This document shows positions 3,857 through 16,140 of a stretch of DNA of 21,261 nucleotides, piece by piece; positions within the stretch are counted from its first letter, which is position 1; the number at the start of each line of letters is the position of its first letter. Both the position numbers and the translations under genes were made by a program. The notes beneath the pieces are model-generated. The model did no database searches, was not told the DNA's origin, and worked only from the letters and a program-made list of their open reading frames with translations. Origin of the DNA: Saccoglossus kowalevskii (Eukaryota > Hemichordata > Enteropneusta > Harrimaniidae); the NCBI RefSeq assembly GCF_000003605.2, contig NW_003115993.1:1-21261 (forward strand), written 5' to 3'.

Positions 3857-3973
3857 TCATTTCTTCCTTTTCAATACTATTTTCTCCCAGCCAATGGTCG
3901 GGTTTTCTAAAAATACCGATATTGCAAACGCCACGGTAAACGTCAAAAGGATTCCCCCAAGTACCAAATAAAC
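3857..3973 (-). CDS. Acyltransferase gene, terminal exon
   Basis: Follows acceptor TTTGCAG. It starts at phase 0 with GTT and encodes 38 residues plus TGA. It holds the last transmembrane helix (VYLVLGGILLTFTVAFAISV) and the family-typical short tail FLENPTIGWEKI ending in basic KRKK. Confidence 0.9.
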   Translation of the reverse strand, partial: VYLVLGGILLTFTVAFAISVFLENPTIGWEKIVLKRKK

Positions 3974-6900
3974 CTGCAAATGAGAATTTAGAGAGCATTT
4001 TATTTTGTGTTTTTTTTTTGTTTGTCGCTCCTGGTACAGTAAAACTGTGTTCATGCCACCAGCAACGAACCCAATAAAGTGTAGGCCGGATTCTAATTTC
4101 ATTTCACTCACACTTTTAAAGCGCGGTAGTCGTTGCGCTGCGCACGTGCCACATTTGTGTTGATAAACATTGATTTTCACGCAATCGCTCTTCAAATGGA
4201 AATTGCAAGTATGTGGTTTGACCTGGACGCGACTTGCACTGATTACCGCTGGTGACACCTTCGATGCCTTCCAATAACATGAAAATTACTTAATTAAAAG
4301 CTTGGAAACGTCTCAGTTTGTACAGTCAAAGTCGCCATCTTTGTTTATATGAGACCCGCGACAGCTACCACGCTTTAAGTAAGAACATAATCTCAGCTGA
4401 GTTGCCGCTTTCCCCCTGTTTTACATACTTCTGTATGGAATATCTAGTTGTAGAGTGACATTATAATGCGATATTTATAAAATATATTTTCGTTATCATA
4501 TGCTTAACAAGTGAATGTAACACAGTCCAAAATACATGTCAAAATTAGCAGAATCTGGGTATTTTCAATATACAAATATAATTTACCATGAACTCGGCAA
4601 ATATGGCTAATCTAAATACATGTAGGGGTGGACATTTTTAAGTATAAATATACATAGAATACATCATCATATTAAGTAAGTACTGTCTAGATTAAAAAGC
4701 CGTGGTCATCTTGCCAAGTGATATATGGGTCCCATACGACCAAAAATGGTGAACAGATGGAAGACTAACGCATCTATGAATATTCATGATCAAAATCTTG
4801 GTATATAGTGAACACTCCCATCTAAATCAAAACTTGCATTAGAAAATCAACCTAAATCCACGACCATCGCCTTTTATGAAGTGCACTTTGAAAACAAATT
4901 TAGAATTGGTCTTGGGTGAATTTACTCACCAGATTGTATACGTCATAGAATAACAATCTATCACGAATGAATTCACTCATCAGATTGTATACGTCATAGA
5001 ATAACAATCTATCACGAATGAATTCACTCACCAGATTGTATATGTCATAGAATAACAACCTATCACGAATGAATTCACTCACCAGATTGTATACGTCATA
5101 GAATAACAACCTATCACGAATGAATTCACTCACCAGATTGTATACGTCATAGAATAACAACCTATCACGAATGAATTCACTCACCAGATTGTATACGTCA
5201 TAGAATAACAACCTATCACGGCTCATGTATCCCATGGCAATGACAGGAAGATGTATCATGTACGCACTGAACGTGAGTCGTGACAGTGGTATCCAAATCT
5301 TCCATGACAGAATAGCGTTGACTGGACCTGGAGGATAAAATCATGTGATTATTATGTATTGTTTCTTGTTGGAAAACATTTTGTGCAAAGATACCGCAAT
5401 ATGAATTACGCTATTGATACAAATACGATAGTGCCAGACATCAAATTTATCAGTTTAGGCGTAAAGGCTTCCATGATTCTCTGGCCCTAAGACACTTTAC
5501 ACAACACATGGTCCTAAATTCAGGACACCGGAACTTGAAGGCTGCACGTTGGGTAGTCCATGTGGCTTCCAAATACCCAAGCCAGCCAAGAAAGCCTTAA
5601 TAATATAAGCATAGGAACTGTAAAACGTAGGTTTTATTTTAATATAGTTTCTAGTCATAGAATTAAAAAAAATCGGTTGCTACAATCAGCCGACGTCTTC
5701 TTTTTATTTTATTTAAACTACAAAAACAAATTAATCGCCTCGACTGCGCCATTCTTGGTTCTTGCAAGCCTGTGCTCTAACGTGAAGTTGAAGTTGAACT
5801 TCTAAAACGAACAGAGCAAGTAACCAACTGTAATATTTGCTTAAACTGTGATATTTTGCCCTGGCCAAACTAACTCATAGACCGCAATGCGCAAGTCCTG
5901 GATCGAACAAGTCACCCATATAACTGCTGGGCTGAACTATTTTGCAAGTTTCCTACCGAAATCCTTGGCAAAATTGTGATTGTTGGCCAAACTGAACAAG
6001 TTACCCAAAAAAACTCATTAGTAGAACAGTATAATTCACCCATCAAACTCCTGGCCGAACTGTGCAAGTTTAACAACGGTGCAAATTACCCACCCAATTC
6101 CCAAAAGTGTGCAAATTACACAACCAAATCATTGGTTAAACTGTGCGAGTTTCCCGACAAACCTCTGGGCTAAACAATACAATTTACCGATAAGCCATAT
6201 TCCGCGTTAAGCGAGATCATACGAAATCTCGTGTGATCTAAATCACGCACTTAGCAACCGGGCGACAAAGGTCAAGCTTTTCATTCACGACGGTGGCAAC
6301 CATATTGATTGCAGTGTTGTAAACAACAATCACTCAACAGTATCGGCATTTAAAGCATCAATGGGAGTTAAACGTTGTGCGTATGACGAATGTAAGAGTG
6401 ATTCGAGGTTTGAAAAGAAGGATTACATGAATGGAGTGTTTTTTGCACGTTTTCCGAAGCCGAAACGTCAACCGGAAAAATGTGATCGGTGGATCAGTGC
6501 GTGTTCTCGTGGTGACGACTTCGGAAGACATTGAATCAAACAAGACACGTACGTGTGTTCTTTACATTTTGTTGGTGGTAATGGTCACACAAGACCAAGT
6601 AAGAGCATCTCTGCCAGCAGCATTTCGACACTTCAAAAGAACTGTGGCCATTATTGACTGCACAGATTTCACAAAGGATTACCTGGTCATCTTATAAGCA
6701 CCACAATACATTCAAGGCACTTGTAGCAATTTCACCCAGTGGAGCTTTTACCTTTGTGTCTGATTTGTGGACTGGATCAGTGTCTGACAAGCAGATTGTG
6801 AAAGATAGTGGTTTTTTGGACAAAGTGAAGACAGGTGATGATATTATGGCTGATCGGGGATTTTTGATACGTGACCTACTTGCCTTTCAAGGAGCCACTT

Positions 6901-9900
6901 TGAACATTCCCCCATTTGATTTTGGAAAGCAACTCAGCAGTGCAGCAGTACCCAAGACAAGGCGAATTGCCAGTGCACGCATTCATGTTGAGAGAGCAAT
7001 TGGTCGTTTAAAAACTTTCAAAATTCCACAGGGTAGTTTGTAGTCTTCAAATGATTTGTATGCTCGGAGCTTCTACCGGTCATAGTCAGACCTGTGGCAC
7101 ATAAGATAATTAAAACATCGCTCAAACCAAAGTCAGGAACATCTGAAAAGTCAGTACTGTAACCGGGGAGGGTAAGAGGGTCTGTAAAATCACATCCTAG
7201 CTGTTTTAGTCGGTCACTGACGTCCCTTTTTGGATCGCGTCTTGTCATATCCGGGTCTTCGTCTAGCCCTAAACTGTGGACTGCTTTTGCCAGCGAAACT
7301 AAAATATTCTTTCTATAATTTGCAGTGGACACGCCAAATTTGCGAAGAAAGTCTTTTAGCCTCGGGACTGTGAGCTTTTCAAAAGCATCCATAATCAATT
7401 AATAGCGAAAATCAGTTCTAAATATTGCCGAGTCGCGTGTGTGGTCTACATGTCACGACGCCATTTTGTTCTAAAGCTTGACCTGCCAGCAACCGTTGCT
7501 ATGGCGTAATCTCACTCTCGCGCGATCCCGCAGTTGGCGGAATATCCATTATTGAATTCCTATGCCGAGTTGTGAAAGTTACCCATCAAACACCTGAGCC
7601 AAGCAGTGCAAAATGCCAACCGAACTCCAGGGCCAGATTGTGCAGGTTGCCCAGCTGACTTCTGGGCTGAACTTTGCAAGTTGCCCATCAAACTCTTGAG
7701 TCAAATAGTACAAATTCCTTACCGAACTCCCGAAAAATGATCGCTCTTGCTCGCATGGCAAATCAATAGATGTATAATGTTTACCTGGCTATGTAATGAT
7801 GAATTTATTACCTCCATATCCTGTGACACATGCTATTGTCATCCAACCCAATGCTACAGCCCATGCTGGACGACTAAGTGTGAGATATAACACGGCTAAC
7901 CATTGTGGCATATAGTGTCCTTCTACTGTGTACCATAAACCATAGATAATAGCCAATCCTGTAGCAATGGCTGCACACCAACCACTAACTACATATGCCT
8001 TCCATTCGGAGAATAGAAATAAGAACTATTATAATTGCTGACACATTTCAATTAAATTGAATACTGTAAAATGACTAATTTTCACTGGGTTTAAATTTCA
8101 CTGATTTACCATTTCAGGCATATTCAGTGGGTTTTAAATTCACGGTTTCGTCATTTAGATAATGTGTTCTCTGCTAAATTTTACACATTCACTGGGTTTT
8201 AATTTAGCGCATATTCTAGTCAGCGAAATAAGCTAAATTAAAACCCAGTGAATAATTACCCCCTTTACAGTATCACATAAATGGATTTATTTCAAAATGA
8301 TAAACCATTTTTTTCGACTAATTATCATCTATTATTGGGGGTATAGCTTCTCAAAGTTTCATAATTAAATTCGTGTTAATCATATGTAATTATGCATTTT
8401 TGTCATACAGTGCTAACCTCTCAATACTGTCATTACTTACCAATCTCATTTTGAATTTTTCCCCCTCCAATCTATAGAGTATATATCCTGTAACCATGCC
8501 AACCATGTACACAGGCCACCTTGTGTATGTTTTCCCATATATAACGTCAATACCATTAGCATCTTCTATGTTATCATTGTACCTCCTTAGAAAGTGAGTG
8601 AAACAATATGCTAGTTCATATACTCGAACACTCGAACCACAGAAAAAATGCATTTATTTTCAATGCACCAATTTGTAAGAATCTGAAAACGACCATGCAG
8701 GTATATGTGCGTTCTCTTATCATATGACAACATGTGTTGTTATTTTGGCCAAATCGACTGAATGAAATGAAATATTATAAAAACTTTACTCTTGAAACAT
8801 TGAAGCAACTTCTCCGAAGTATGTAGCAATAAAAGCGACGACACACCAACACGCCACACACAGCAATGCGATCAACCCCATGCCCAATTTCCAAGACCTG
8901 TAAAACAAAAGGACTTGAGTGGTTGATAGTTGTTTTATTGCTATGTAAATTAGGTAAGAATAACCGGAAGTCCATCTTTTATATATGAATGTTTTTTTCT
9001 TCTTTGTTTAGATTGTTAGTTTGTTTGAGACAAACACTGAACACTAGTCACAGCCAATCTATCTAGGTTTGGGTCTTTTATTTTTATTTGTTTGTCAATG
9101 AGTAGCTTATTTGAGACGATAACTGAACATTGTAAATTGTGCTTTGTAATCAGGGCAAATAAAGAAGAAAATCAAAATGAAGTACCTGTAAAGCAGAATA
9201 AGTATTGGTGGACTGAGCCAATAGAACTGCATATCACATGCCAGATACCACACCCATCCAATACACTACGTACAGAAAAATACACTAAATCTGGCATTAC
9301 TGATCACATTCATAGATCCAGTCACAGTCCCTCTAGAGGAACTGTGATTCAGTCTATTAAATTCCAAGTTTTATTCGTTTAAACGAGTCAAATCTCATTA
9401 TTGTCATGAAGGGTTCAAGGAATTTTCTATACTTTTGTAATCACTTGTATATACACACACCATTATTTAAATACATATTGCTGTGCTAAAAAAACACACT
9501 TTCTGTTAAGAAATTCGTACATAATTGCTGACAGAACTCACTAAAAGTAGACAGGACTCACTGAATGCCATCACTAAAACTAGATAGGACTCACTGAATG
9601 CCCTTACTAAAAGTATACAGGACTCACTGAATGCCCCCAATAAAACGAGACAGGACTCACTAAATGCCCTCACTAAAAGTAGACAGGACTCACTGAATGC
9701 CATCACTAAAAGTAGACAGGACTCACTGAATGCCATCACTAAAACTAGACAGGACTCACTGAATGCCCTAAATAAAACTAGACAGGACTCACTGAATGCC
9801 CTTACTAAAAGTAGACGGGACTCACTGAATGCCCCCAATAAAACGAGACAGGACTCACTAAATGCCCTCACTAAAAGTAGACGGGACTCACTGAATGCCA

Positions 9901-12900
9901 TCACTAAAACTAGACAGGGCTCACTGAATGCCCTTACTAAAAGTAGACGGAACTCGCGTGAATACCCTCAATAAAACGAGGCAGGACTCACTAGATGCGC
10001 TCAATAAAACTAGACAGGACTCACTGAATGTCCTCAATACAACTAGACAGGACTCACTGAATGTCCTCAATACAACTAGACAGGACTCACTAAATGCCAT
10101 CACTAAAAGTAGACAGGACTCACTGAATGCCATCACTAAAAGTGGACAGGACTCACTAAATGTTCTCACTAAAAGTAGACAGGACTCACTAAAAGTCCTC
10201 ACTAAAAATAGACAGGACTCACTGAATGTTCTCACTAAAAATAGACAGGACTCACTGAATGCCATCATTAAAAGTAGACAGGATTCACTGAATGTCGTCA
10301 ATAAAACTAGACAGGACTCACTGAATGCCCTCACTAAAACTAGACAGGACTCACTGAATGCCCTCACTAAAAGTAGACGAGACTCACTGAATGNNNNNNN
10401 NNNNNNNNNNNNNNNNNNNNNNNNNNNNNNNNNNNNNNNNNNNCTAAAAGTAGACGGAACTCGCGTGAATACCCTCAATAAAACGAGGCAGGACTCACTA
10501 GATGCGCTCAATAAACTAGACAGGACTCACTGAATGTCCTCAATACAACTAGACAGGACTCACTGAATGTCCTCAATACAACTAGACAGGACTCACTAAA
10601 TGCCATCACTAAAAGTAGACAGGACTCACTGAATGCCATCACTAAAAGTGGACAGGACTCACTAAATGTTCTCACTAAAAGTAGACAGGACTCACTAAAA
10701 GTCCTCACTAAAAATAGACAGGACTCACTGAATGTTCTCACTAAAAATAGACAGGACTCACTGAATGCCATCATTAAAAGTAGACAGGATTCACTGAATG
10801 TCGTCAATAAAACTAGACAGGACTCACTGAATGCCCTCACTAAAACTAGACAGGACTCACTGAATGCCCTCACTAAAAGTAGACGAGACTCACTGAATGC
10901 CATCACTAAAACTAGACAGGACTCACTGAATGCCCTCACTAAAACTAGACAAGACTCACTGAATGCCCTCACTAAAACTAGACAGGACTCGCTGAATGCC
11001 CTTACTAAAAGTAGACGAGACTCACTGAATGCCCTCAATAAAACTAGACAGGACTCGCTGAATGCTCTCACTAAAACTAGACAGCACTCGCTGAATGCCC
11101 TTACTAAAAGTAGACGAGACTCACTGAATGCCCTCAATAAAACTAGACAGAACTCACTGAATGCCCTCACTAAAAGTAGACAGGACTCGCTGAATGCCCT
11201 TACTAAAAGTAGACAGGACTGACTGAATGCCCTCAATAAAACTAGACAGGACTCACTGAATGTCCTCAATACAACTAGACAGGACTCACTGAATGTCCTC
11301 AATACAACTAGACAGGACTTACTAAATGCCCTCAATAAAAGTAGACAGGACTCACTGAATGCCATCACTAAAAGTGGACAGGACTCACTAAATGTTCTCA
11401 CTAAAAGTAGACAGGACTCACTAAAAGTCCTCACTAAAAATAGACAGAATTCACTGAATGTCGTCAATAAAACTAGACAGGACTCACTGAATGCCCTCAC
11501 TAAAACTAGACAGGACTCACTGAATGCCCTCAATAAAACTAGACAGGACTCACTGAATGTCGTCAATAAAACTAGACAGGACTCACTGAATGCCCTCACT
11601 AAAACTAGACAGGACTCGCTGAATGCCCTTACTAAAAGTAGACGAGACTCACTGAATGCCCTCAATAAAACTAGACAGGACTCACTGAATGCCCTCACTA
11701 AAAGTAGACAAGACTCACTGAATGCCCTCACTAAAACTAGACATGAGTCGCTGAATGCCCTCACTAAAAGTAGACGAGACTCACTGAATGCCCTCAATGA
11801 AACTAGACAGGACTCACTGAATGCCCTCACTAAAACTAGACAGGACTCGCTGAATGCCCTTACTAAAAGTAGACAGGACTCACTGAATGCCCTCACTAAA
11901 AGTAGACGAGACTCACTGAATGCCCTCATTAAAACTAGACAGGACTCACTGAATGCCCTCACTAAAACTAGACAGGACTCGCTGAATGCCCTTACTGAAA
12001 GTAGACAGGACTCACTGAATGCCCTCACTAAAACTAGACAGGACCCACTGAATGCCATCACTAAAAGTAGACAGGATTCACTGAATACCCTCAATAAAAG
12101 TAGACAGGACTCGCTGAATGCCTTCAATAAAACTAGACAGGACTCGCTGAATGCCCTTACTAAAAGTAGACAGGACTCACTTAATGCCCTCAATAAAACT
12201 AGACAGAACCCACTGAATGCCATCACTAAAACTAGACAGGACTCGCTGAATGCCCTTACTAAAAGTAAACGAGACTCACTTAATGCCCTCACTAAAACTA
12301 GACAGGACTCACTGAATGCCCTTTCTAAAAATATTCAAAATAATATTTTATGTTTTAAGCTTATTCTGTGAGTTTCACATAATTTTGAAGTGCGACTGTC
12401 AGTCCCAAATACACATTATACTTACTGGACCGTTAACACCAGGAAAAGGGTACAAGTTGTTTATATACAGAATATTCGTCCACCAATAATCTTTGCAGTT
12501 CTTTCTTCCTCCTTCATATGCCAACTGATACAATGGTCCGTCAAATATGTGTAGAATGAGGTATGTATAAAACAACATTACAAACAACAACACCCATGTT
12601 ATTCTCCAATATCGATGAATGTAATACACCAACCAGTTCATTTTACCATTGTTTCTAGCCATCTGTTTCATTGATAGGTATGTCACTAACAAACCACTGC
12701 AACCAGAAAATATCACACAGTAGGTAGGTTACACCTAGGAAAAATACCTTCAGCAATTGTACCTACGTTAGTGGGTAAAAAACGCGGATTATTATGTTCA
12801 AAATTATCCAGTACATGTAATTAGTATGCAACGCATATCTGCGAGTGTTATTCGTAAATCGTTTTCATCTGAACTGGTACTGGCTGAGGAGGTAGAAGTG

Positions 12901-14810
12901 GTGTTATTTATGTTAACATCGACATCTCGACCGCATGAAATGAATTCATAAAAAGCAACTATGAAAATATTTTGATAACTCAATTAGTATTTTCTCATCT
13001 TTAATTCCCGTTTTTCTTAGTCCGTTTTGTTGTTTTGATAAATTTTAAGTTTGTTTATGAAAATGTTTATTTCAAGTTTGTCAAGAATGCATTGAACAAT
13101 ACATGTGTTTCATCTTCGATGTTTTGATTTTTACAAATAGACCATTTTCTTTCTGAAAGTATGAGAAAGATATGGATGGACATGCATAATTGACGGACAG
13201 TTGAAATATTTCTTTGTTTTTACCTTTATGTATAAAAGAACCGAGATCAACCCATGATAAATGGCTTCCAAACGTTTTCGTACAACTATAATTGGTATTC
13301 TATTTTTTATTGCAAATAATTTGTTTTATTTGACAGTCGTATTTATTGTGCTATTCCATCGTGGTAAATGACGACCCTATGTATTCTAGTTAGAGTGTAC
13401 TAGTGCCTTTAGGGTTAAAATATTCATCCTCTTTATTGTCGTAAACCACGGCCTATTTGCGGCAACTGACTCTTGTCTCTCGACGGAGCTGGTAAAATAA
13501 GCTTACGTTGCTGTGGTAAGGCAGCAACTAGGACTAACATCTCACATTTGTGATCGACTTTTACATCTATATATAAACTTCTATATTGTATATGATTAAT
13601 CGTGCAGTTTTCCACATTTGATTTTCGATATAAAGATACACAATTTACCAACCTTAAATAAAAGAAGGAGTCCACAGAATACGTTGCATTCCATATCACT
13701 TGATACCAAAATCCTTTGAAGCTGTTGAGTAAATAATTGAAGTTCTCTGTTCCAAAAAAACAACAAAAATCGAAGTTTGTTTAAATTATTGTTACTAAAC
13801 TAATGTCTTAATCTTTATAGGAACAATAACATACTGTGAAATAAAAAAGTTAGTCTAGCGGAAAACAAAACAGTATCGGTTTGATAGCATGTGTACGTAC
13901 CAATATTTTCTGTTCATGACTTTTTGAAGCCAAAAAGAAAACTTCAAATCCTATTGCCTTTTTGATGTTAACATTTCGGATTTATACTACAAGCACAGCA
14001 TAGAAATTTTTAATAAAGTGTTTGTCTGTTCTTTCGATTTACAGTTCACTCAAAATAGCGTAATTTTGTAAAACATTATATGTATATATATATTTACGTA
14101 CCGGTAACATTCACCAGTGCCGTAAATATATGACCAATGAACACCCATGAAAAACTGAGTACACGTATTCCGTTCAAACACAGCAGATATGGAGAGGTTA
14201 CTTTGGCTGACAGAATCTTACGACCATTTTCCAGGAACGAACACGCCAAGATGAACTGATGGATATACCCTTATAAAATGAAAACCATATACATTATCAT
14301 TCCAGTACACAACAGATTGATTCATTCGACGACAACTTGACATCTTTTGTTGGAAAGTGCAGGCAAGTACTTGTAGTTCCAATTTTCAGTCAGGTCCCGT
14401 TTTACTATGTTTAATACCAGTGTCGTCCAATGAAGTTCTCCAGACAGTACTTTGAAAATGTTGTTATTATATGTTATAACACTACTAGTATTTGCTTACG
14501 TACTGTTAATGTTGACCTACAAATGTGATATACGATATAAGCTAATAATTATATCTAGTGATATATCTATATATATATATATTGTGAAACACGATACCTA
14601 CATGTATACACTATTGTCTTACTATATAGTAAGTAGCTTTGCGTTTGTTTTTCGTGTTTGTTTTATTTAAAAAAACTACGAACAAAATTTACTCTATGTA
14701 AAGTACCTTGACGTGCAGCTCTGTTACCGGAATTATGCCGTTTAATTTTAATATATATATCATATATTGTACCTACGAGGACCATGGCACCAAATACGGC
14801 ACAGAAACAT
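3857..14810 (-). CDS. Acyltransferase-3 / NRF-6-like multipass membrane protein (10 exons, 5' end missing)
   Basis: Gene-level entry. Coding exons in transcript order: 14810-14773, 14269-14102, 13746-13653, 12696-12426, 9265-9186, 8897-8790, 8585-8441, 7998-7812, 5327-5185, 3973-3857. All nine introns are GT..AG and every junction keeps codon phase, giving about 449 codons. Family landmarks appear in order: LNGIRVLSFSWVFIGH, SVDSFFYL joined to GLLVTYL, HRYWRITW, WWTNILYINN, WVWYLACDMQFYWLSP, TRWPVYMVGMVTGYIL, LSRPAWAVALGW, WIPLSRLTFSAYMIHLPVI, and a last helix ending near FLENPTIGWEKI. These match the nose-resistant-to-fluoxetine (NRF-6) group of membrane acyltransferase-3 proteins. In C. elegans NRF-6 acts in drug response and lipid/yolk transport; the acyl substrate is not established. 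The cysteine-rich NRF domain and signal peptide expected upstream were not found. They may lie beyond 21261 or in exons too short to spot among the retroelements. Confidence 0.88.
4259..4899 (-). other. Intronic sequence, nothing recognised
   Basis: Part of the last intron (3974-5184). No repeat family, RNA or exon was recognised. Confidence 0.5.
4920..5222 (-). repeat. Six-copy 51-bp tandem repeat spanning an exon end and its splice donor
   Basis: A 51-bp unit is repeated six times. On the minus strand each unit translates to 17 residues (RDRLLFYDVYNLVSEFI) and contains CTG followed by GTGAGT, the donor of the exon that starts at 5327. Exon ends would be 5185, 5134, 5083, 5032, 4981 and 4930. 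The copy at 4981 has ATGAGT, so its donor is lost; the other five keep GTGAGT. Copies differ at only a few positions (AATCTATC versus AACCTATC, one Val/Ile change), so the expansion is recent. All six copies stay open in the exon's frame, ending in a stop beyond the last. Confidence 0.92.
5185..5327 (-). CDS. Acyltransferase gene, second-last exon (shortest form)
   Basis: Follows acceptor TATCCTCCAG. Two bases complete the glycine begun in the previous exon, then 47 codons. It carries the family signature WIPLSRLTFSAYMIHLPVI and ends in YDVYNL at the first donor of the 51-bp repeat, at phase 0, matching the terminal exon. Using the later donors at 5134, 5083, 5032 or 4930 would add 17, 34, 51 or 85 residues without changing frame. 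The proximal donor is taken as the ancestral boundary because the protein then passes straight to the last helix, as in relatives. Confidence 0.88.
5338..5895 (-). other. Intronic sequence, nothing recognised
   Basis: Left part of intron 5328-7811. No recognisable element before the minisatellite that begins near 5900. Confidence 0.5.
5896..6190. repeat. Degenerate ~36-bp minisatellite, left part
   Basis: Diverged tandem copies built on GAACTGTGCAAGTTACCC and CCAAACTCCTGGGC words, period about 36 bp (for example GGGCTGAACT at 5930 and TTGGCAAAAT at 5966). The same unit resumes at about 7558, so the Harbinger remnant inserted into this array. Confidence 0.7.
6361..6534 (+). pseudogene. THAP zinc-finger N-terminus of the Harbinger transposase (fragment)
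   Basis: ATG at 6361 opens 57 codons to TGA. It begins MGVKRCAYDECKSDSR, the CxxxxC half of a C2CH THAP finger, followed by the family 'F-FP' element (FFARFPKPKR) and the conserved Trp (CDRWISAC). The later Cys/His pair, the AVPTF box and the following helix-turn-helix region are missing. THAP domains bind the transposon ends. The reading frame breaks before the DDE part. Confidence 0.72.
6580..7043 (+). pseudogene. DDE_4-type (Harbinger/ISL2EU) transposase core, broken
   Basis: Two reading-frame pieces. The first (about 6580-6680) has VTQDQVRASLPAAF and AIIDCTDF, the region of the first catalytic Asp. A frame change and small loss at about 6675 lead into the second (6681-7043), which starts TWSSYKHHNTFKAL. 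It continues ISPSGAFTFVSDLW with the second Asp, then DIMADRGF with the third acidic site, LNIPPF, and RIHVERAIGRLK. After GRLKTFKI the frame runs into foreign sequence and stops, so the C-terminus is deleted. The element is not autonomous. Confidence 0.85.
7018..7398 (-). pseudogene. Second ISL2EU gene: SAP-like N-terminus (YqaJ-type protein), 3' truncated
   Basis: Minus-strand frame of 126 codons. Met at 7398 or, more likely, the second Met at 7392 (MDAFEKLTVPRLKDFL). Residues 5-45 resemble a SAP-type helix-extension-helix (FEKLTVPRLKDFLRKFGV), which precedes the YqaJ/lambda-exonuclease-like domain in ISL2EU second proteins; that nuclease domain is absent here. The frame ends where the transposase also breaks, consistent with one deletion. 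The SAP/YqaJ link rests on family knowledge, since the diagnostic domain is gone. Confidence 0.55.
7558..7740. repeat. Degenerate ~36-bp minisatellite, right part
   Basis: Continues the array interrupted at 6195, with GGGCTGAACTTTGCAAGTTG and CAACCGAACTCCAGGGCC style copies. It shows that the transposon target was the minisatellite. Confidence 0.7.
7812..7998 (-). CDS. Acyltransferase gene, exon 8 of those found
   Basis: Acceptor GAATGGAAG after a pyrimidine-rich stretch; donor GTAATA. Phase 0 at its start and one base over at its end. It encodes AYVVSGWCAAIATGLAIIYG (a transmembrane helix), a short loop, then LSRPAWAVALGW and CVTGYG, a strongly conserved block of NRF-6-like proteins. Confidence 0.88.
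8061..8273. mobile_element. 213-bp MITE with ATACTGTAAA terminal repeats
   Basis: ATACTGTAAA at 8061-8070 is the exact inverse of TTTACAGTAT at 8264-8273. Inside, variants of TTCACTGGGTTTTAAATT occur at 8081, 8122 and 8188, and inverted at 8234. The last two form a perfect 22-bp stem (8187-8208 with 8232-8253). There is no coding capacity. It lies in the intron between exons 8585-8441 and 7998-7812. The target duplication is unclear. Confidence 0.8.
8441..8585 (-). CDS. Acyltransferase gene, exon 7 of those found
   Basis: Acceptor CTTTCTAAG, donor GTAAGT. One base completes a Glu codon, then 48 codons to phase 0. It contains TRWPVYMVGMVTGYILYRLE, matching the family's 'Y.(R)..PY..G...GY.L' helix. 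The acceptor was chosen by the phase of the previous exon; the AG three bases further in would break it. Confidence 0.87.
8790..8897 (-). CDS. Acyltransferase gene, exon 6 of those found
   Basis: Acceptor TTTTACAG, donor GTAAAG. The 108-nt exon encodes a long hydrophobic helix (LGMGLIALLCVACWCVVAFI) and ends MFQ plus two bases. A single in-frame TAA would follow immediately if the donor were not used. Confidence 0.85.
9186..9265 (-). CDS. Acyltransferase gene, exon 5 of those found
   Basis: Acceptor TTTCTGTACGTAG, donor GTACTT. The 80 nt encode CIGWVWYLACDMQFYWLSPP, one of the most diagnostic NRF-6/acyltransferase-3 blocks ('W.YL..DMQ(F).L.P'), then ILILLY. Phase 0 at its start and two bases over at its end. 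Confidence 0.9.
9323..9346. repeat. 24-bp near-perfect palindrome
   Basis: CACAGT and ACTGTG flank a perfect CCTCTAGAGG core, with one mismatched pair in between. It is intronic, and no function is evident. Confidence 0.6.
9528..12331. repeat. 33-bp minisatellite array (~80 copies) inside an intron
   Basis: The unit is 33 bp with words GGACTCACTGAATGCC, CTCACTAAAA and ACTAGACA or AGTAGACA. It fills most of the 3.16-kb intron between exons 12696-12426 and 9265-9186. Because 33 is divisible by three and the unit lacks stops, long frames are open on both strands: AFSESCLLLVR repeats on minus, TKSRQDSLNAL repeats on plus. The flanking exons join in phase without it, so it is intron and not protein. 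Variants (TCCTCAATACAAC, GTTCTCAC, TCGTCAATAA) recur in fixed order, showing block duplications. The copy number is uncertain because of the N gap. Confidence 0.95.
10394..10443. other. Assembly gap (50 N)
   Basis: Exactly 50 N inside the 33-bp array, with near-identical ~458-bp sequence on both sides (9936-10393 and 10444-10900). The size is probably a placeholder. Confidence 0.99.
12426..12696 (-). CDS. Acyltransferase gene, exon 4 of those found
   Basis: Acceptor TCTGGTTGCAG, donor GTAAGT. One base plus 90 codons, ending at phase 0. It starts within the 'SGLLVTYL' helix, then KMNWLVYYIHRYWRITW (conserved HRY-R block) and a hydrophobic helix, VLLFVMLFYTYLILHIF. Next come GPLYQL, a Cys and WWTNILYINNLYPFPGVNGP, the diagnostic lumenal-side block. 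It is the largest exon and the firmest family evidence. Confidence 0.93.
12697..13652 (-). other. Intron, nothing firm
   Basis: Intron between exons 13746-13653 and 12696-12426. No repeat family was recognised. A 36-codon plus-strand frame (13261-13371) preceded by TATAAAA is the only item noted; see findings. Confidence 0.6.
13653..13746 (-). CDS. Acyltransferase gene, exon 3 of those found
   Basis: Acceptor TTTTTTTGGAACAG, donor GTTGGT. Two bases, 30 codons, then two bases. It encodes ...FWYQVIWNATYSVDSFFYL, matching the family's 'N...SVDtFF.lSG' motif, which is completed by the next exon. Confidence 0.9.
14102..14269 (-). CDS. Acyltransferase gene, exon 2 of those found
   Basis: Acceptor CATTTTATAAG, donor GTACGT. 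Two bases, 55 codons, then one base. It contains YLLCLNGIRVLSFSWVFIGH, the conserved start of the acyltransferase-3 domain with the invariant Arg and the catalytic-candidate His at the end of the first helix. Confidence 0.93.
14275..14772 (-). other. Intron, nothing recognised
   Basis: It includes short (TA)n stretches near 14565-14582 and 14751-14766. A hydrophobic 72-codon plus-strand frame at 14452-14670 is probably chance in AT-rich DNA. Confidence 0.5.
14773..14810 (-). CDS. Acyltransferase gene, most upstream exon found (tentative)
   Basis: A 38-nt segment between TATTTCAG and GTACAA. In the phase required by the next exon it reads CFCAVFGAMVLV, a hydrophobic stretch fitting the helix that precedes the acyltransferase domain. 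The short length makes this less sure than the others. Exons further upstream were not found. Confidence 0.6.
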
Positions 14811-15600: not shown

Positions 15601-15699
15601 GTTGATGGCGACCCCCCGAAACAAATGATAACATATCAAAGACAAGCGCTGATTTGTGGAGATTGACATGTTTACACTGAGTATATCAGCGCCGTTGTC

Positions 15700-16086
15700 A
15701 ACCAGGGAATTCTCACGACGAAATCTGTTGGCCACTCAGTATCCGAGCAGTGAAAAAAACGTGCGATGATAAAAGTGAATGGGCCTACACCATGTTCAGT
15801 CCAGTTGTAGTTGTGCCAAAACAATCGGGAGATGGTCAGACTATGGTAGCTATGCGCCAGGCAAATCAGGCGGTAGTCAGAGAGAGACATCCATTACCTA
15901 CTGTAGATGAAATATTAGAAAGCATGAACCAAAATCCCAGTATTCACAAAGTTAGACCTTGAGTGGGGTTTTCATCAGATCGAGTTGGAGGAATCATATT
16001 ACAACATTCGCTACACATAGCAGTTTGCCTGACATTAATTCTGAACTGTACTGACACATCAACAAGTATTGAACGGGTGTGTTGGA

Positions 16087-16140
<54 letters not shown>

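Follow-up and report, generated by a model that had tools for sequence, protein, structure and literature searches.

A 51-bp tandem repeat with five in-frame splice donors at the end of an acyltransferase-3 exon in Saccoglossus kowalevskii

The acyltransferase-3 gene and its surroundings

The window, a stretch of 21,261 nucleotides, carries on its minus strand a gene of the acyltransferase-3 type that may belong with the NRF-6-like animal acyltransferases, in which an N-terminal NRF domain precedes the acyltransferase part. Ten exons running from 14810 to 3857, with none identified upstream of 14810, were placed from sequence only, by reading frame and splice signals and with NRF-6-like motifs as a guide. 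All nine junctions are of the GT-AG type with consistent phases, and on this placement the gene keeps its coding capacity across all ten exons. Frame and splice signals set the first placed exon (14707..14810) and the upstream exons at 13653..13746, 9186..9265 (CIGWVWYLACDMQFYWL), 8790..8897 and 8441..8585, while the start of the exon at 14102..14269, with acceptor TTTTATAAG, was set by phase. The exon at 12426..12696 has an open reading frame that by itself weakly matches Acyl_transf_3 (E 0.0017, below the cut-off). The exon at 7812..7998 ends in phase 1 and is joined to the penultimate exon, which is entered at 5327, after TCCTCCAG. When it ends at its first donor (CTG followed by GTGAGTGAA), the penultimate exon spans 5185..5327, measures 143 nt and contains no extra blocks of the kind described below; it is then flanked by introns of 2,484 nt (7811-5328) and 1,211 nt (5184-3974). 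The terminal exon (3857..3973, phase 0) supplies the last hydrophobic segment and the stop codon (VYLVLGGILL...KRKK-stop).

The 471-residue protein obtained in this way reaches 80.0 bits (E 2.2e-22) against Acyl_transf_3 (PF01757), whose curated cut-off is 31 bits, and the match covers the profile almost completely (3-325 of 326). A search of solved structures with the same protein gave no match. The open reading frame containing the array alone gave six Pfam matches, all below the curated cut-offs and none of them to an acyltransferase, and neither Rfam (at gathering thresholds) nor a tRNA scan gave any match.

The window also contains other repetitive and mobile sequences. One intron of the gene houses a minisatellite in which a 33-bp unit recurs about 84 times (9537-12330, with 50 of the bases unread); it starts about 95 bp past the exon ending at 12426. 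On the strand of the gene it contains 61 occurrences of GTGAGT, 37 of them as TCA followed by GTGAGTCC. It thus has dozens of donor-like sites, and the length of its unit, too, is a multiple of three. The intron preceding the array exon harbours one open reading frame on the plus strand (6603-7043) that matches the DDE_Tnp_4 transposase (E 1.5e-34) and another on the minus strand (7018-7398) with a SAP-domain match below the cut-off; together they presumably represent a transposon of the PIF/Harbinger type. A further open reading frame (15681-15962, plus strand) gave no Pfam match and resembles, by its motif, part of a reverse transcriptase from a retrotransposon. An (AT)25 dinucleotide run is found at 16090-16140.

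Six copies of an exon-intron boundary

Six 51-bp copies occupy 4915..5220 on the minus strand, each made up of 36 nt from the end of the exon and 15 nt from the start of the intron. Copies 1 to 6 extend over 5220-5170, 5169-5119, 5118-5068, 5067-5017, 5016-4966 and 4965-4915, respectively. Tandem Repeats Finder reports the array at 4917-5220 with period 51, 6.0 copies, 97% matches, 0% indels and a score of 573, and this size, regularity and score exclude a chance match. An earlier note on this DNA had described a 51-bp unit repeated six times on the minus strand across the end of an acyltransferase-3 exon and the start of its intron, and had explained it as a tandem duplication of the exon-intron boundary; both its coordinates and its statements were confirmed, and the make-up of the six copies supports the explanation. 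Compared with the first copy, copies 1 to 6 show 0, 0, 0, 1, 2 and 4 differences, which means that the three 5'-most copies are identical to one another. The two 3'-most copies have AGATTG in common, whereas the remaining copies have AGGTTG.

GTGAGT stands directly after the exon ends 5185, 5134, 5083, 5032 and 4930, that is in five of the six copies, and is preceded by CTG each time, while the copy ending at 4981 has ATGAGT in its place. The count of five intact donors and one broken donor given in the earlier note accordingly held copy by copy. From -3 to +9, the intact donors share one sequence except for the last, at 4930, which is followed by AAATTCACC instead of GAATTCATT. Its agreement with the U1 complement is therefore 8 of 11 bases, and that of each of the other four is 7 of 11. 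At the end of the last copy the sequence is GTGAGTAAATTCACC, compared to GTGAGTGAATTCATT at the other intact junctions. Copies 1-4 contain a second donor-like site as well, TAG followed by GTTGTTAT (5213, 5162, 5111 and 5060, minus strand; seven of 11 U1 matches), which is missing from copies 5 and 6, where AGA replaces AGG.

All five donors are in phase 0 and join the terminal exon (3973-3857) in frame. Counted from the first placed exon, the joined proteins have 471, 488, 505, 522 and 556 residues, and the final stop is the only one in each. Since the unit consists of 17 codons without an in-frame stop, every donor is joined correctly to the last exon. These proteins bear out the view taken before, that all copies stay open and that any donor reaches the terminal exon at phase 0, and the frame allows each of the products then proposed, with 0, 1, 2, 3 or 5 blocks of 17 residues. 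Block 1 (5134..5184, minus strand like the rest) encodes VSEFIRDRLLFYDVYNL and ends at the intact donor 5134; block 2 (5083..5133) and block 3 (5032..5082) likewise end at intact donors, at 5083 and 5032, and block 3 has DIYNL for DVYNL. Block 4 (4981..5031) runs into ATGAGT, which is no standard donor. Block 5 (4930..4980) starts with MSEFI in place of VSEFI and ends at the intact donor 4930 (CTG followed by GTGAGTAAA), the best U1 match of the five. Read as coding sequence, the blocks show only three kinds of change, namely AGG to AGA (silent), GTA to ATA and GTG to ATG, too few for a substitution test of constraint to be run on them.

The peptide VSEFIRDRLLFYDVYNL has a mean hydropathy of 0.21 and a low helical moment (0.15). 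The best mean over 19 residues is 0.61 inside the blocks compared to 2.41 in the terminal exon, which rules out the blocks as an added membrane helix. The same peak agrees with the earlier placing of the blocks just before the last hydrophobic segment, and judged from this profile extra blocks would lengthen the loop ahead of the last helix. Peptides such as LLFYDVYNLVSEFIR are expected only from the use of a downstream donor.

All tandem duplications of 20-120 bp over the nine donors of the gene were also simulated, provided that they reached 9 nt or more to either side of the donor and stayed within the exon lengths. Among the 47,494 cases, 33.9% were multiples of three, and 16.7% were both a multiple of three and open in the frame of the exon. 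As an in-frame, open outcome arises in about one of six simulated events, the ladder-like property of the array is no evidence of selection.

Donor choice and the origin of the array

Donors were scored by the number of matches to an 11-base U1 complement. The four identical donors score 7, the last donor 8 and the broken copy, which is without GT, 6, while the other eight placed donors of the gene score from 5 to 9, those at 14707 and 8790 being below 7. Scores of at least 7 were found at 46 of the 877 GT sites of the pre-mRNA, 11 of which are placed or array donors; since such scores are not rare, the U1 measure cannot decide donor use. With regard to the family profile, the best PF01757 match of the protein with five blocks ends at profile position 292 (75.8 bits), before the last helix. 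The profile thus favours the product with 0 blocks, and the interruption of the match by the blocks points to 5185 as the likely ancestral exon end.

The long introns on both sides make it most likely that the splicing machinery recognises the exon as a whole (exon definition). PMC9225289 reports that exons between long introns obey a rule of cross-exon proximity, the upstream one of near-equal donors being favoured in human data, and that each of five exon-defined minigenes carrying a pair of identical strong donors was spliced from the upstream one only. When both donors were made very weak, the larger exons (L and XL) were mostly skipped and the M and S constructs kept the upstream preference, and the intron-proximal rule held for short introns (PMC9225289). 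Use of the intron-proximal donor is promoted by SRSF1, and hnRNP A1 acts in favour of the intron-distal donor (PMC5585400), so that regulators could shift or reverse the order of the donors.

The reading that we favour, with a probability of roughly 0.6, is that the array is a young minisatellite and that most of the mRNA is spliced from its first donor, 5185. By analogy with the minigenes, we would expect 5185 to be dominant and the remaining donors to be weakly used. IFI6 points the same way, in that its 130-residue form predominates although two repeat units further downstream act as donors (PMC4526556). The first tandem duplication would have spanned the exon-intron junction, with 36 nt from the exon side and 15 nt from the intron side, later rounds would have raised the copy number to six, and a complete 5' splice site would have come with each copy. 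Judged from the tail of the last copy, 49 bp may have been copied and two T added at the join, as happens in end joining, giving 51; two C-to-T changes would explain this tail equally well. The donor at 5185, nearest to the acceptor across the exon, would then win, so that most of the mRNA would encode the ordinary acyltransferase with 0 extra blocks, and the downstream donors would be redundant and rarely used, giving minor isoforms with 1, 2, 3 or 5 blocks. That one of the six donors is already lost is as expected without constraint. The earlier note had added the caveat that the array could be neutral, and for the main product this appears the likelier case in view of the profile, the long introns and a frame accident of one in six. 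Counting against 5185, donor 4930 is the best U1 match and is favoured by the older intron-proximal rule, the minigene evidence comes from transfected cells and human exons, and the strong predicted fold of the array could disturb donor choice.

If instead the intron-proximal donor 4930 were the one used, the array would have been exonised and the main protein would be longer by 85 residues, in five blocks ahead of the last helix. The 8 of 11 U1 matches of this donor and the frame that is open through all copies are consistent with such an outcome, and SRSF1 could, by analogy, promote an intron-proximal donor here (PMC5585400). However, the PF01757 match breaks at the blocks, the exon would measure 398 nt compared to 80-271 nt for the other eight non-terminal placed exons, and the upstream donor was favoured in the exon-defined minigenes (PMC9225289); we regard exonisation as unlikely, though it fares best among the alternatives.

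A true splice ladder would imply that several donors are in sizeable use, that the protein changes in steps of 17 residues and that copy number varies among individuals. Near-identical copies are, as a general matter, prone to copy-number change, four of the five intact donors cannot be told apart from -3 to +9 and all five share phase 0, and there is a precedent in IFI6, where several units of one repeat serve as donors (PMC4526556). On the other hand, identical strong donors gave an all-or-none choice in the minigenes (PMC9225289), neutrality of frame came without selection in the 16.7% of simulated duplications given above, and the loss of the donor at 4981 speaks against a ladder as well. 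We consider it rather improbable that such a ladder operates.

A combination of ladder and variable-number repeat, in which a choice among five donors and differences in copy number between individuals would change the loop before the last membrane helix in steps of 17 residues, with no frameshift, and might be tuned by hairpins pairing donors between copies, seems to us more doubtful still. For the 306-nt array the predicted folding energy is -98.9 kcal/mol. The predicted chance that the nine bases at a donor are all unpaired is 0.0014-0.0025 for the five intact donors and 0.0002 for the broken copy, compared to a mean of 0.023 over the stretch. When the array was put through 200 plain dinucleotide shuffles, the lowest energy was -86.4, so that all of them fell short of -98.9, which would point to structure; this control, however, destroys the repeats, and tandem arrays were used as a second one. 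The energy of a perfect six-copy array of the unit, -99.8, was reached by 27 of 300 tandem arrays whose unit had been shuffled, by 19 of 300 made from random 51-mers of the window and, when DNA parameters were applied, by 50 of 200 made from shuffled units. Judged by these controls, a fold of this strength comes mostly from tandem repetition as such, and the idea that the array exists for its RNA structure was rejected.

Two explanations appear highly improbable. Tandem repeats are often misassembled, and the repeat count could be wrong or the array absent from the genome, but 306 bp is short enough for many spanning reads, three copies have private differences unlike simple stutter, and misassembly more often collapses repeats. 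A nascent small intron, formed by the donor of one copy and the AG of GATAG (present in all six copies) in a later one, would have a parallel in boundary repeats that can form new introns (PMC2812944), but the acceptor would be poor, with pyrimidines at eight of the 15 bases before that AG, and a phase-0 CTG joined after GATAG reads (G/A)TT GTT ATT CTA TGA, a stop after four codons that closes the frame in every copy and by which a new intron inside the array was rejected.

Comparison with known systems

By analogy, the nearest known kind of array is the minisatellite with several donors in human IFI6 (6-16), compared to which the unit found here is longer. The IFI6 repeat has a 12-nt unit in about 26 copies, the isoforms stay in frame, and the form of 130 residues is the shortest. 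Its step is 4 residues, compared to 17 residues, 51 nt and six copies in the acyltransferase array. Two repeat units lying downstream act as donors for IFI6 isoforms, the 130-residue form being predominant (PMC4526556). Both arrays have a repeat at the end of an exon with donors in successive units, and three features of the IFI6 type were found here: the array spans the end of the exon, as placed, and the start of the intron, its units are donor-like, and their length is a multiple of three and open. For IFI6 the use of the donors in mRNA is reported, whereas for the acyltransferase array it is predicted.

Tandem repeats at exon-intron boundaries were reported to account for 27 intron modifications in human genes lying in segmental duplications (PMC2812944). 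These repeats, too, alter transcript structure at the boundary, but the cases described there are new introns or retained repeats, whereas the acyltransferase array consists of repeated donors with no new intron evident. In Drosophila, introns have been gained by tandem duplication, and alternative splicing is described as tolerated when the duplicated length is a multiple of three (PMC2891723). The duplications described in that source carry splice signals, as does our array, but they start from an AG/GY proto-splice site within coding sequence rather than from a copied exon-intron junction. The array gives no new in-frame intron of the AG/GY type, since TGA follows four codons past GATAG. 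The minigenes of PMC9225289 resemble the array exon in having equal donors in one exon between long introns; they were, however, designed with two donors of the strongest type, whereas the array is natural and has five donors with a weaker U1 match. Among the matches listed in a literature search of titles and abstract starts, no such array in an acyltransferase was found, which given the incomplete coverage is weak evidence that none has been described.

The array offers a natural competition experiment, with four donors identical from -3 to +9 at 51-nt steps in one exon, a broken one and a slightly stronger one, and junction counts would tell a preference for proximity across the exon from one for proximity across the intron in this species. 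It also illustrates that intron sequence can become reading frame through a repeat without obvious cost, and if several of its donors are used, it would be an example with a much longer unit beside IFI6.
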